Shown: one piece after another, positions 44,571-50,682 of the stretch | Layout of the letters: the number at the start of each line of letters is the position of its first letter | Numbering within the stretch: the first letter of the stretch is position 1 | Source: Seleniivibrio woodruffii | GTDB lineage: Bacteria; Chrysiogenota; Deferribacteres; Deferribacterales; Geovibrionaceae | DNA length: 64,000 bases | Assembly: GCF_004339245.1 (NCBI RefSeq) | Contig: NZ_SMGG01000007.1 | Span: 1 to 64,000, forward strand | Reading direction: 5' to 3' | The notes under the pieces: model-generated | What the model was told of the DNA's origin: nothing | Database searches by the model: none | Seen by the model: only the letters and a program-made list of their open reading frames with translations | Program-made: the position numbers and the translations under genes

Positions 44571-45701
44571 TTATAATATTATAGGAATATGTACACGGAA
44601 AACCGTGCCGTTCTCCTCGTCGGTATGAAAATCAACCCGTCCGTGGAGATATCTTTCGGTGAGAAGTTTTATGCTGTGGGTTCCAAGACCGGAGCCCCTC
44701 TTTTTCGTCGTGAATGATTTTCTGAAAATGAGATGCCTGTGTTCCAGAGGGATCACCTGCTTGTTGTGAACGGCAAAAACGGCTATTCCGCCCTTACAGC
44801 AGACGGAAACAGTCACTTTATCTCCGATTGACGAGGCCTCAATGGCGTTTGTAAGCATGTTCAGAAGCACACGGCGCAGAAGGGATTCGTCAGCATTGAT
44901 CTGGAAATCCGTATTACCCGCATCACAGTATATTACCTTACCGAATGAACATTTCATATTCTCTGCCACGGAAACAACTTCTTTCAGAACATCCAGCGAG
45001 CTGAATACGGAATTGCTCACCAGAAGCTCGTTCGTTTCGGCTGCCTTGAGAGTTTTATGGGCACAAAGCTCGTTGATAAGCTGTTCCGAGGTGGCCATCA
45101 GAAGTCTGTTCAGCTTCTCACGCTCAGGCTCTTTCGCCTGCTTCTCCTCCAGAATCAGCTGGAGCATGGAGTGGATGCCACCTGCTATGTTTATGATGTC
45201 ATGGAAGAATATCTGTTCAAGGACATTCATGCGTTTCTGGCGGCCTATATCGCAGATAGAGAAGAGAGTATAGCGCATGCCTCTGAACTCGAAGGGCTTG
45301 CTGCTGACGGAAAGCTCATAGGTTTCCCCGTCCGCAGAGGTTATGACGCATTCCTCAATCCGCTCTTCACCTTTCAGCTGGGTTTCCAGAATGGCGTTCA
45401 CCGCTCCGCACTCTCTGCAGAAAACGGCAGTGCCGCAGCCGCCGTCCGTAAGTGCGTTGGTGCATTGGAATATTTCGCCCGGTCTCAAGCCCAGAACTAT
45501 CTGCGCATCCCCTATTCCATAATTATTCATAAGAGTGCGGTTTACATAAACAGTCTGACGTTTATCGTTTAATATCAGTATGTTCTGTTCAACTTTATCC
45601 ATCAGGGTTTTGAAGATCGGTTCGGACGAGAGGATATTGTATATCTCCAGTATGGAATTCCGGTCGTCTCTTTCGGCTGGTGCGAAGTGTGTTTCAGTCA
45701 T
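44571..45701 (-). CDS. sensor histidine kinase with PAS domain
   Basis: I start it at the ATG at 45701 (376 residues, MTETHFAPAERDD), which has AAGGGAC before it; an ATG at 45758 would add an extra hydrophobic leader. The PAS-like domain spans about 40-150 with six cysteines (CTNALTDGGCGTAVFCRECG), perhaps a metal or redox site. FFHDIINIAGG carries the phospho-accepting His, and the ATPase end has NMLTNAIEAS and the G box GSGLGTHSIKLL. No membrane segment, so cytosolic. The partner regulator is unknown. Confidence 0.88.
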   Translation of the reverse strand: MTETHFAPAERDDRNSILEIYNILSSEPIFKTLMDKVEQNILILNDKRQTVYVNRTLMNNYGIGDAQIVLGLRPGEIFQCTNALTDGGCGTAVFCRECGAVNAILETQLKGEERIEECVITSADGETYELSVSSKPFEFRGMRYTLFSICDIGRQKRMNVLEQIFFHDIINIAGGIHSMLQLILEEKQAKEPEREKLNRLLMATSEQLINELCAHKTLKAAETNELLVSNSVFSSLDVLKEVVSVAENMKCSFGKVIYCDAGNTDFQINADESLLRRVLLNMLTNAIEASSIGDKVTVSVCCKGGIAVFAVHNKQVIPLEHRHLIFRKSFTTKKRGSGLGTHSIKLLTERYLHGRVDFHTDEENGTVFRVHIPIIL

Positions 45702-45770
45702 CGTCCCTTTCCATAGATATCTAATTATAAGTATAAGGGATATCTGCATTATGAACAAGGGAAATAAAAA

Positions 45771-45794
45771 AAGACCGCCCCGAAGGGCGGCCTT
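45771..45794 (-). terminator. intrinsic terminator of the purine operon
   Basis: CCGCCC and GGGCGG pair with a CGAA loop inside AAGACCGCCCCGAAGGGCGG. On the minus strand it runs straight on from the TAA of the selenoprotein gene and is followed by TTTTTTT. It is the end of purS-Q-L-F-selenoprotein transcription. Confidence 0.88.
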
Positions 45795-46141
45795 TACTGC
45801 TGTTGTTTCAGTTTCAGTCTGGTCATGATGTCCCCTGCGTCCGAAAGTCCCCAGCAGAGCGGCTCGCCGTTCATGGTTACATAGGGCAGGGTCAGCCTTC
45901 CTTCGACAATGGAACCGATATCGTCTATGTAGTCCAGAATCTCAGGAGAGGCAACATCAACATATTTAAAATCCACTCTGTCCGGGCCGAACTCGCTGTT
46001 CAGAAGCGCATCCAGCTTGTATGACATCTGTTCGTAGGGATCCTGTCTTGACCCGCAGCCTGCGGGCGAAAACGAGGGGCCTCAGCCGGAGACAAACTCC
46101 ATACTGCTGCCGAAAACCCGGATTACTATAACGTCATTCAT
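45794..46141 (-). CDS. probable selenoprotein, thioredoxin-fold (in-frame TGA at codon 20)
   Basis: Ordinary gene finding sees only 77 codons from ATG 46027, but the frame stays open upstream to ATG 46141 (MNDVIVIRVFGSS) through one TGA at 46082-46084. AGGAG sits about 8 bases before ATG 46141, 11 bases after purF. Read as selenocysteine, the product is 115 residues with VSG-U-GPS at 17-23, a Cys at 29 (AGCGSR), helix DPYEQMSYKLDALL, strand VDFKYVDV, and a cis-Pro-like LPYVTMNGEPL. This is a small thioredoxin/YuzD-like fold. A SECIS-like hairpin follows the TGA. Substrate unknown. No selA/B/C is in the window. Confidence 0.85.
46045..46073 (-). promoter_or_regulatory. bacterial SECIS-like hairpin
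   Basis: In the mRNA, CCCGCA-GGC-UGCGGG is a perfect 6-bp stem with a 3-base loop (46052-46066). A lower stem GUUUU/AAGAC extends it to 46045-46073. The loop's first G is separated from UGA by 21 nucleotides, within the known bacterial range. The GCAGG...CUGC apex resembles that of E. coli fdhF. It lies inside the coding sequence, as bacterial SECIS elements do. Confidence 0.8.
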
Positions 46142-46152
46142 ACAAAAAACTC

Positions 46153-47523
46153 CTACTCACTGTTTTTATGCATGGTGGGGTATTCGCCGGAAAAACAAGC
46201 ATGGCAGTAGTTCTCGCTGCCCACGCAGTCCATAAGACCCTCTATGCTCAGATAGCCGAGGCTGTCCGCAGTGATGTATTTTCTGGTCTCCTCGACAGTG
46301 TGTGTCGAAGCGATAAGTTCTTTTCTTGTGGGGGTATCTATACCGTAGAAGCAGGGAAATGCAGTGGGGGGTGAGCTGATGCGCATATGCACCTCTTTTG
46401 CGCCCGCCTCACGAAGCATTTTTACGATCTTACGGCTGGTGGTTCCCCTTACGATGGAGTCGTCAACCACAACAACCCTTTTGCCGTCTATAACCTCTCT
46501 TACGGGGTTAAGCTTTATCTTAACTCCGAAGTGACGGATGGACTGGCTGGGTTCGATGAAGGTTCTGCCCACATAGTGGTTTCTCATAAGACCCATCTCA
46601 AAAGGGATGCCGCTCGCTTCGGCATAGCCGAGAGTGGCAACGACACCTGAATCCGGAACGGGGATAACCACGTCCGCCTCAACAGGCGTCTCCTTCGCAA
46701 GCCATCTGCCGAATTTTTTACGAACCTCATAAACGTTGCGTCCGAAAAGATAGGAATCAGGACGTGCAAAGTAAATATGCTCGAATATGCAGGGCTTAGG
46801 TGTTGTCTTTTCAAAGGGGAAAATGGATTTGATGCCGTCGTCGTCGATTATGACCATCTCGCCCGGCTCAATCTCACGGACAAAGCTGGCCTCAATAAGA
46901 TCAAGCGCAACCGTTTCCGATGCGAGGATGTATCCGTTGTTCTTGAGTTTGCCAAGAACCAGCGGACGCATGCCCATGGCATCACGCACGCCTATCATTC
47001 TGTCTTTTGTCATGATAAGCAGCGAGAAAGCACCTTTCAGCCTGCGCAGAGAATCGGTGATAGCGTCAATAAGGTTGTCCTTGCCGCATTTTGCAATGAG
47101 GTGGACTATGACCTCAGAGTCGGATGTTGAACCGAAGATCGCTCCTCTGGCAACAAGACCCTCTTTTATCTCGTCGGCATTAACAATGTTTCCGTTGTGT
47201 GCCAGCGATATCTGACCGAAATTGATGGTAACGGTTATGGGCTGGGTGTTCGCAAGGGCTGAGACCCCTGTGGTGGAATATCTGTTGTGCCCGATGGCGA
47301 TATCGCCCTGAAGCTTGTCCAGCTTCTCCTGGCTGAAAATATCGGCCACAAGACCCATGCCTTTTTCATACACGATCTTCGATCTGTCGGTAACGGCTAT
47401 TCCCGCTCCCTCCTGACCCCTGTGCTGAAGCGAGTACAGCGACAGATAGACAAGATTTGCCGCCTCTCTGTTTCCGTGTACTCCCGCTACCCCGCATTCT
47501 TCGTGAAATTTATCAAAAATCAT
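46153..47523 (-). CDS. purF: amidophosphoribosyltransferase
   Basis: PurF makes phosphoribosylamine from PRPP and glutamine, the first purine step. The 456-residue protein has a short propeptide ending before the catalytic Cys ([17 protein letters not shown]), the glutaminase core with HNRYSTTG and NGNIVN, and the PRPP loop [17 protein letters not shown]. Late cysteines ([18 protein letters not shown]) match the [4Fe-4S]-containing Bacillus-type enzyme. It overlaps purL by 4 bases and precedes the selenoprotein gene. Confidence 0.96.
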
Positions 47524-49751
47524 TTCATTCTATCTCCGATGCTGTTTTTCCAGATTTTTTCGAGTTCCGACACTTTTGATGAAATCAGTTTGTCGGTTTT
47601 GTTGGATATCTCGATAAGTCCGCTGCATGTACGCCCAATCTTCGATATAGGCAGATTATATTTTTCCGCAAGGGCTGTTATGGCCTGTGCGTTGTTAACA
47701 TCTATCTCAAGTATGACACGTCCGTGGTTTTCACCGAAAAGCAGTGCATCATTGCGTATTCCGCTCTCCAGCTTAACGTTCACGCCGACGTTTCCGCCGC
47801 CGAAGCACATCTCGCACAGAGCAACCGCAATACCGCCCTCGGATATGTCGTGGGCAGATTTGACAAGTCTTCTGTCGGCCGCTTCGCACATGAAATCGAT
47901 TATGCCCTTCTCACGCTCAAGGTCGACCTCGGGAGCATCGCCGCGCTCAAGTCCGTGGATGGATGCCAGATATTCGCTTCCGCCCATGTAGCCTGTGTTC
48001 TCACCCAGCAGATAGACTGCGCTCTCCATGCTTTTGAAGTATGAGCCGATGCGCTTTGTAACGTCGTCGAACACGCCCACCATAACCACTGTGGGTGTGG
48101 GGTGTACGGGTTTGCCCTCTGTTTCGTTGTAAAGGGAAACGTTTCCGCTGATGGCAGGTGTTTCAAGCACTTTTGCCGCTTCCGCCATACCCTCCACCGC
48201 CGAAACGAACTGCCACATTATCTCAGGCTTTTCGGGGTTTCCGAAGTTCAGACAGTTTGTGAAGGCTCTGGGGCGTGCGCCGCTGACGGCGACGTTTCTG
48301 GCTGATTCGGCTATCGCCGCTTTTCCACCCTCAAAGGGGTTGAGCAGACAGAATCTGCTGTTGCAGTCGCTTGATATGGCAACGCCCTTCTCTGACTCGT
48401 TAAGCCTGATGACGGCCGCATCCGAACCGGGAAGCTGAACAGTGCCCACACGAACCATGTGGTCATACTGCTCCCATACCCATCTTTTGGATGCTATGGT
48501 CTCGTTGGCAAGCAGAGTTTCCAGAACTTTCTGGAGATTTGCAGGCGCATCTACTTTGGGCAGACGCTGAAGCTCGTCCATATAGTCGGGTCTTGAATAG
48601 GGTCTGTTATATTTGGGTGCCTCGTCGGCCAGAGGAGCCGCCTCAAGAGCCGCAACCTCTTCGCCTTCCCAGAACAGCCTTACATAGCCGTCATCGGTAA
48701 CTTCACCTATAACAACGGCATCCAGATCCCATTTATCGAAGATCTCTTTAACTTTGTCTTCATATCCTTTCTTCGCCACCATAAGCATACGCTCCTGTGA
48801 CTCGGAAAGCATTATTTCATAGGGATTCATGCCCTTCTCACGCATGGGCACCCTGTCCAGATCAAGCCTTACGCCCGAACCCGACTTGGAGGCCATCTCA
48901 AAGGAGGAACTGGTAAGCCCTGCGGCTCCCATGTCCTGAATACCTACAATGAAGTCTGTTTTCATAAGCTCAAGGCAGGCCTCAAGCAGAAGTTTTTCTT
49001 TGAACGGATCGCCAATCTGTACGTTGGGGCGTTTAGCCTCGCTGTTCTCGTTGAACTCCTCGGAGGCCATGGTTGCGCCGTGGATTCCGTCACGTCCGGT
49101 CTTCGCACCGACGTAGATAACGGGGTTGCCGAGACCTTCCGCCTTCGCCAGATAGATGTTCTCCTTGCGGACAACGCCCAGAGCGAATGCGTTTACCAGC
49201 GGATTGCCGTCGTAGCAGCTGTTGAAATATACCTCGCCGCCAACTGTGGGAACGCCGAAGCAGTTGCCGTAGTGAGAGATCCCCGCCACAACGCCTTCAA
49301 ATATCTGACGGTTCTTAGGTTTGTCCAGTTTTCCGAAACGCAGTGAGTTCATAGCAGCAACGGGTCTTGCGCCCATGGTGAAAACGTCGCGAAGGATACC
49401 GCCTACCCCTGTTGCCGCTCCCTGAAAAGGTTCGATGAATGAGGGGTGGTTGTGGGATTCAACCTTGAAGCATACGCAGAGGCCGTCGTTGTCGACCTCG
49501 ATGATGCCTGCGTTCTCGCCGGGGCCCTGAACAACCCACGGTGCCTTTGTGGGGAATTTTGCCAGATGCACACGGCTTGACTTGTAGCTGCAGTGCTCGG
49601 AATACATCGATGAGATTACGCCAAGCTCTATATAGTTGGGCGTTCTGCCCAGAAGTTTCTTAACACCCGCAAACTCTTCGGCGGAAAGACCCATGCCCTT
49701 CGCCGCCTCGGCAGTTACTTCGGGGAAACCGAATTTTTCGTATACGCTCAT
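47520..49751 (-). CDS. purL: phosphoribosylformylglycinamidine synthase subunit PurL
   Basis: PurL is the synthase subunit converting FGAR and glutamine-derived ammonia to FGAM. At 743 residues it is the small type that needs PurS and PurQ, both encoded upstream. It has [28 protein letters not shown]-like [40 protein letters not shown] and the C-terminal [14 protein letters not shown]. It overlaps purQ by 4 bases. Confidence 0.96.
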
Positions 49752-50446
49752 TTGCAGCCCCCGATAAATTTTGCTATGGATTCAAACAGGAAATAACCGT
49801 CTCTGGTCTCCATAACACCCTCCGCACACCTTTCGGGGTGGGGCATCATACCCAGAACGTTGCCCTGCTTGTTAACTATTCCCGCAATGTTGCCCAGTGA
49901 GCCGTTGGGGTTTGAATCGTCCTCTGCCGTGCCGTTGTCATCGCAGTAACGGAAAACAACCTGTCTGTTGTCCTCCAGCGATTTAAGGCCGTCGGCATCT
50001 ATATAGTAATTACCCTCCGCATGGGCAATGGGGATACGCACAACTTCGCCAGCCGCATAAAGGTTGGTGAAGGGGGTGTCCGTATTGTCTACACGCAGGT
50101 TTACATATTCGCATTTGAATTTCAGGCTTCTGTTGCGCAGGAGTGCGCCGGGAAGAAGACCCGATTCTGTGAGCACCTGAAATCCGTTGCAGATTCCAAG
50201 CACATGACCGCCGTTTCCGGCGAAATTGATAACTTCGTTAACTATGGGCGAAAACTTCGCAATTGCACCGCAGCGCAGGTAGTCGCCATATGAAAACCCG
50301 CCGGGGAAGACAACGAGGTCAACACCCTGAAGGTCGGTATCCTTATGCCAGAGGAAAACCGTGTCCGCACCGATGACGTGCTTAAGCACATGATAGCAGT
50401 CGTGGTCACAGTTTGACCCCGGAAAAACAACAACTCCGGCTTTCAT
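49748..50446 (-). CDS. purQ: phosphoribosylformylglycinamidine synthase glutaminase subunit PurQ
   Basis: The 232-residue class I glutaminase feeds ammonia to PurL. It has [13 protein letters not shown] at the start, the [16 protein letters not shown] oxyanion region, the nucleophile in [13 protein letters not shown], and [10 protein letters not shown] with the catalytic His and Glu. It lies between purS (2-base gap) and purL. Confidence 0.96.
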
Positions 50447-50448
50447 GC

Positions 50449-50682
50449 TTACGCCTCAAACTCTATGCTGTATTCTTCAATGATCATGTTTGCAAGCATT
50501 GTAGATGCTATTTTCTCAAGGTCCTTGCGGCAGGCCTCGCTTTCAACCTCTATCTCAAACACTTTGCCGACCCTTACCTCTTTTGCAAAATCATAACCCA
50601 TTCTCTCAACTGAGCTTTGAATTGTCTGGCCCTGAGGGTCGAGGACGCCGTTTTTGAGCCTCACATACACTTTTGCTTTCAT
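50449..50682 (-). CDS. purS: phosphoribosylformylglycinamidine synthase subunit PurS
   Basis: The 77-residue subunit bridges PurL and PurQ. It has the family features [18 protein letters not shown] near the start, [12 protein letters not shown], and the end [14 protein letters not shown]. It opens the purS-Q-L-F-selenoprotein operon. Confidence 0.95.

Follow-up and report, generated by a model that had tools for sequence, protein, structure and literature searches.

The gene that closes a purine operon of Seleniivibrio woodruffii very probably encodes a DUF1462-like protein that is decoded with selenocysteine (Sec) at an in-frame TGA. The protein represents a new branch, one with Sec only, within a thioredoxin-fold family, and adds a selenoprotein family to those in the 2026 catalogue of 119 (PMC13188914). 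Our tentative overall picture is of a family that spans at least two phyla, with Sec in every copy found, and that in Deferribacterota may serve [4Fe-4S] PurF as its dedicated redox partner. The frame, the conserved UGA, the SECIS hairpin, the Sec machinery, the family and the gene order are read from the sequence itself, and the fold is predicted.

A first-pass annotation of the window (the whole stretch of 64,000 nucleotides that was analysed) had proposed a selenoprotein gene hidden by a TGA at the end of the purine operon. This proposal is borne out by the Sec machinery of the genome, by the TGA in all homologous loci and by the conservation of the SECIS hairpin. It is also supported because none of three findings named beforehand as damaging was made, that is, a genome without Sec machinery, homologues with neither Cys nor Sec at the position, or homologues starting only at the downstream ATG. 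The features of the locus, in positions of the window, are as follows.

45794..46141, minus strand: putative selenoprotein gene, thioredoxin-fold, DUF1462-like; 115 codons plus TAA, Sec at codon 20
46082..46084, minus strand: in-frame TGA, read as Sec within the motif VSG-U-GPS; shared by all 37 homologous loci, 0 Cys
46149..46153, minus strand: ribosome-binding site AGGAG ahead of ATG 46141 (approximate)
46052..46066, minus strand: bSECIS hairpin CCCGCA-GGC-TGCGGG; fixed spacing, reduced synonymous change, a covarying pair, stability above synonymous shuffles
46052..46060, minus strand: codons 28-30 (Gly-Cys-Gly) within the hairpin; Cys29 invariant in Deferribacterota orthologues
45770..45795, minus strand: intrinsic terminator at the operon end, 11 pairs, 3' of the selenoprotein gene stop
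46153..47523, minus strand: purF, [4Fe-4S]-type amidophosphoribosyltransferase, directly 5' of the selenoprotein gene
47520..50682, minus strand: purL, purQ and purS, the remaining operon genes

When the TGA is read as a residue, the minus-strand frame from 46141 to 45794 comprises 115 residues, with a single TGA and a TAA stop. Re-reading the window thus agrees with the frame described earlier, open for 115 codons except for the TGA at codon 20. The ribosome site claimed for this long frame was also recovered as the AGGAG before ATG 46141, and a Shine-Dalgarno-like stretch lies upstream of the long start in the orthologues too. Since purS, purQ, purL and purF lie upstream in the same direction and a terminator follows the stop, the selenoprotein gene is the last of purSQLF. 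An Rfam search of 45500-46500 returned chance or terminator-like matches only.

The source genome (G000, 2.9 Mb) was searched for selA, selB, selC and selD, as the first-pass annotation had suggested, and all four genes expected alongside a bacterial selenoprotein gene are present. We found a tRNA-Sec (selC; 74 bits, anticodon TCA), SelA (505 bits) directly adjoining SelB (302 bits, above its cut-off), and SelD (328 bits), whose own active site contains one TGA. This selD (L117:984-1150, G000:C3) is itself a UGA (Sec) gene with the motif KAAG-U-AAKTGPGD. We propose that SelB and tRNA-Sec translate through the UGA under the direction of the hairpin just downstream. The product would be a 115-residue cytosolic thioredoxin-fold selenoprotein, a Sec branch of the DUF1462 (YuzD) group.

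Among 100 relatives, a search reading through stops detected the gene in 19, at 20 orthologous loci. All 20 orthologues and a paralogue that is 24% identical carry a single in-frame TGA, and it always falls at the aligned codon. Together with 16 loci from another phylum, the TGA occurs at the same codon in 37 of 37 loci, and none has Cys there. The search queries had Cys at the TGA codon, which should have favoured Cys forms, yet none turned up. Aligning homologues at codon 20, a check suggested at the outset, therefore gave Sec in every locus and a Cys counterpart only in the distant structure 1xg8. The conserved in-frame UGA is flanked by coding constraint on both sides (pN/pS 0.14-0.39), as expected of a selenoprotein gene.

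These data bear on two other readings of the codon. If the TGA were a true stop, a 77-residue protein would start at ATG 46027, and this ATG and its open frame do exist in the window. However, only 3 of the 19 orthologues compared have Met at the downstream ATG, so that a start there is absent from most of them, and in two orthologues no start codon of any kind occurs 3' of the TGA. Furthermore, purifying selection runs upstream of and across the TGA, and the Shine-Dalgarno sites stand at the long start. As judged from these alignments, conservation already refutes the 77-residue protein, to which we give practically no credence. The second reading, that the gene is a pseudogene, contains a sequencing error or has TGA decoded as Trp, draws on the in-frame TGA itself and nothing more, whereas an identical TGA at 37 loci from two phyla, the strong constraint and the loss of the gene where selA is lost all argue against it. 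Three orthologues terminate at a TGA themselves, thus TGA is not simply reassigned. We consider this second reading extremely improbable.

The paralogue (in G005, L118:4623-4986) is divergent, with the Sec motif CTSG-U, and lies away from purF; two MoeA-like (molybdopterin) genes stand a few kilobases off. Another genome, G004, holds two copies of the purF-selenoprotein pair, on contigs C7 and C16 (L002, L020); in both the purF is 95% identical to that of the window, which points to a duplicated operon or to two strains in a metagenome bin. With a Deferribacterota profile, both a pattern scan of genome contigs and a search of 385 genomes gave matches in Deferribacterota only, and a plasmid search gave nothing.

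The hairpin had been placed 21 nt past the TGA; this holds for the start of the loop, whereas the base of the stem starts at 15 nt. Its extension by GUUUU/AAGAC is confirmed, as the outer pairing forms in the computed fold. The GCAGG at the apex presumably resembles that of the E. coli fdhF SECIS. Scoring as a SECIS, another check called for earlier, showed that the hairpin (loop GGC, spacing 21 nt, best fold -21.0 kcal/mol) satisfies the bSECIS rules, which comprise a loop of 3-9 nt, G in the first two positions, a spacing of 16-37 nt and an MFE <= -7.5 (PMC13188914). A single hairpin is little proof, as these rules are also satisfied by 79 out of 300 random TGAs of the window. It is the conservation of the TGA and the loop spacing, not one hairpin, that exceeds chance: the loop begins exactly 21 nt after the UGA and with G in all 21 loci (20 orthologues and the paralogue), a spacing thus kept throughout the orthologues. 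In Deferribacterota, the mean hairpin energy is -8.8 kcal/mol compared to -4.1 for synonymous shuffles, and synonymous change drops to 0.32 within the hairpin codons, from 0.72-0.85 in the flanking ones. Covariation links codon 27, at its first base, to the wobble base of Cys29: the two are paired in all 13 cases that allow it (GCA/TGC, ACA/TGT), with a permutation P of 0.0009 from a statistic that ignores relatedness.

The distribution of the gene follows that of selA. Both occur in 18 of 51 genomes from the phylum, the gene only in 1, selA only in 2 and neither in 30 (P = 1.2e-10, which overstates independence because related genomes share ancestry). The single gene-only genome is 87% complete, and among genomes that are >= 90% complete the corresponding counts are 18, 0, 1 and 20. 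In the 16 genomes without the gene that were checked 3' of purF, no homologue was found, Cys or otherwise. Since these Sec-less relatives have retained purF, and the stretches of it that were read show the C-terminal cluster cysteines, the selenoprotein is not essential for PurF. One selA-positive genome from the same taxonomic order (L104, G015:C37) likewise has purF with no selenoprotein after it.

Homologues also occur in a second phylum. A 111-residue homologue in G381 (L079), with its TGA in CGYG-U-GP, was first seen as a weak PF07315 match, and a further search centred on it yielded 16 loci from five families, every one with the TGA. Other PF07315 matches with stops (L080, L088, L094, L095) are unrelated frames, and L135, L137 and L138 from the second-phylum search are likewise unrelated. 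The hairpins of this branch have a mean energy of -9.4 compared to -3.9 for synonymous shuffles, with a G-initial loop about 16-17 nt past the UGA. Most of the genomes have selA; none was found in G390 and G392 (75-76% complete) and G566 (88%). This branch is without Cys29, and most members have a Cys at U-4/U-5 instead. None of the members examined is next to purF, and thioredoxin reductase-like and/or thioredoxin genes adjoin four of them (L132, L133, L134, L136). A thioredoxin reductase/thioredoxin pair probably supplies the relatives outside Deferribacterota. At L136:1-3178, the Sec-DUF1462 gene has a thioredoxin gene on one side and thioredoxin-reductase/thioredoxin-like genes on the other, and together these may form a redox operon.

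The family, which the first-pass annotation could not name exactly, can now be called DUF1462-like, although the window protein itself scores 16.4 bits against Pfam DUF1462 (PF07315), under the 25-bit gathering cut-off. The distant Sec members L132, L136, L133 and L130 reach 43, 32.9, 29.3 and 25.3 bits, and a two-phylum profile matches 1xg8 with E 8e-9, aligning the Sec to the second Cys of CASC. DUF1462 has been placed in the thioredoxin-like clan (PMC3091736). The AlphaFold model is predicted as beta-alpha-beta-alpha-beta-beta-alpha (mean pLDDT 77.6); the active-site loop, residues 15-31, falls below pLDDT 50, and a second structure model is no better there. Its top Foldseek match in the PDB is 1xg8 (E 1.3e-4, TM 0.53-0.55). 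The earlier claim that the TGA sits at a thioredoxin-fold active site is thus consistent with the predicted fold and with the Cys of 1xg8 aligned to the Sec. The CASC active site itself is replaced by VSGU. Residues G19, U20, P22, L47, P86 and G98 are invariant in both phyla. Sec20 would occupy the catalytic position ahead of helix 1, with the conserved P86 apparently at the cis-Pro position of the fold. No NCBIfam selenoprotein family (June 2026) scored above its curated cut-off, and direct searches of NCBIfam and the PDB that used only the window protein yielded no useful match.

The link to purine genes, which had been described as unexplained, was under-rated: purF directly precedes the gene in 20 of 20 orthologues, across five families of the order. 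For the function we can offer a proposal. The four cluster cysteines known from B. subtilis PurF are all present in the PurF encoded here, and B. subtilis-type [4Fe-4S] PurF is an oxygen-sensitive enzyme. Because these cysteines are kept and distant members neighbour thioredoxin and thioredoxin reductase genes, our best guess, held with some reserve, is a reductase that protects or repairs PurF. Co-expressed with PurF, such a thiol/selenol reductase may keep the oxidation-sensitive enzyme active or restore it, with the cluster cysteines or the Cys nucleophile as the possible target. Cys29 is the likely candidate for the resolving Cys in the Deferribacterota form, and a Sec20-Cys29 selenenylsulfide cycle would be the most plausible chemistry.

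Nearly as likely is that the protein is a general thiol-disulphide reductase or peroxidase without a special tie to PurF, for which the purine operon supplies only a promoter. The thioredoxin-like fold suits such an enzyme, and members in the other phylum sit elsewhere, some beside thioredoxin reductase and thioredoxin genes; however, the position of all 20 orthologues of five families directly after purF is an unusually constant link. Less probable, and in our view unlikely, is a Sec-containing chaperone for Fe-S clusters or metal(loid)s (ArsD-/YuzD-like), which would deliver or protect the PurF cluster rather than act as a redox enzyme. PurF is of the [4Fe-4S] type, and ArsD is both the second-ranked structural match of the model and a weak Pfam match, below cut-off, in three members. 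However, the protein has no cysteine-rich metal site, and redox chemistry better fits a Sec together with a cis-Pro-type Pro86.

If a reductase does serve PurF, the first step of purine synthesis would be tied to selenium. The constant purF neighbour links selenium with purine synthesis in a way that is directly testable in cultured Deferribacterota. Furthermore, the branch supplies Sec relatives for the uncharacterised DUF1462/YuzD group. In the open-access literature searched, no DUF1462/YuzD entry appears among the prokaryotic selenoprotein families of the 2026 inventory (PMC13188914). Standard annotation would truncate the gene at the "stop" codon, and because Sec is present in every copy found, searches based on Cys/UGA pairs would tend to miss the family.

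When comparing the protein to known systems, we find the closest likeness in DUF1462/YuzD (PF07315; PDB 1xg8, S. aureus SA0798), which shares the thioredoxin-like fold, gives the best structural and profile match and has an alignable C-terminal half. In Bacillus, yuzD presumably lies in a neighbourhood with nfu. The position that is Cys in 1xg8 is Sec in every copy of our branch, and the Deferribacterota form has an insertion of ~10 residues with the SECIS and Cys29 and is without the first Cys of CASC. ArsD is the second-best fold match, but its cysteines are absent here. The hairpin has the same G in the first loop position as the bSECIS consensus and a spacing inside its 16-37 nt (PMC13188914); it differs from that consensus and from the E. 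coli fdhF SECIS in its three-base loop and in its spacing, which is 21 nt in Deferribacterota but about 16-17 nt in the second phylum. The Trx, Grx, SelW-like, UXX-star and SaoT selenoproteins likewise have a thioredoxin fold with Sec as the N-terminal active-site residue, and a bSECIS just downstream. In contrast to these, the present family has no UxxC or CxxU motif; it has GU-x-P, with a Cys at U+9 in Deferribacterota or usually at U-4/U-5 in the others.
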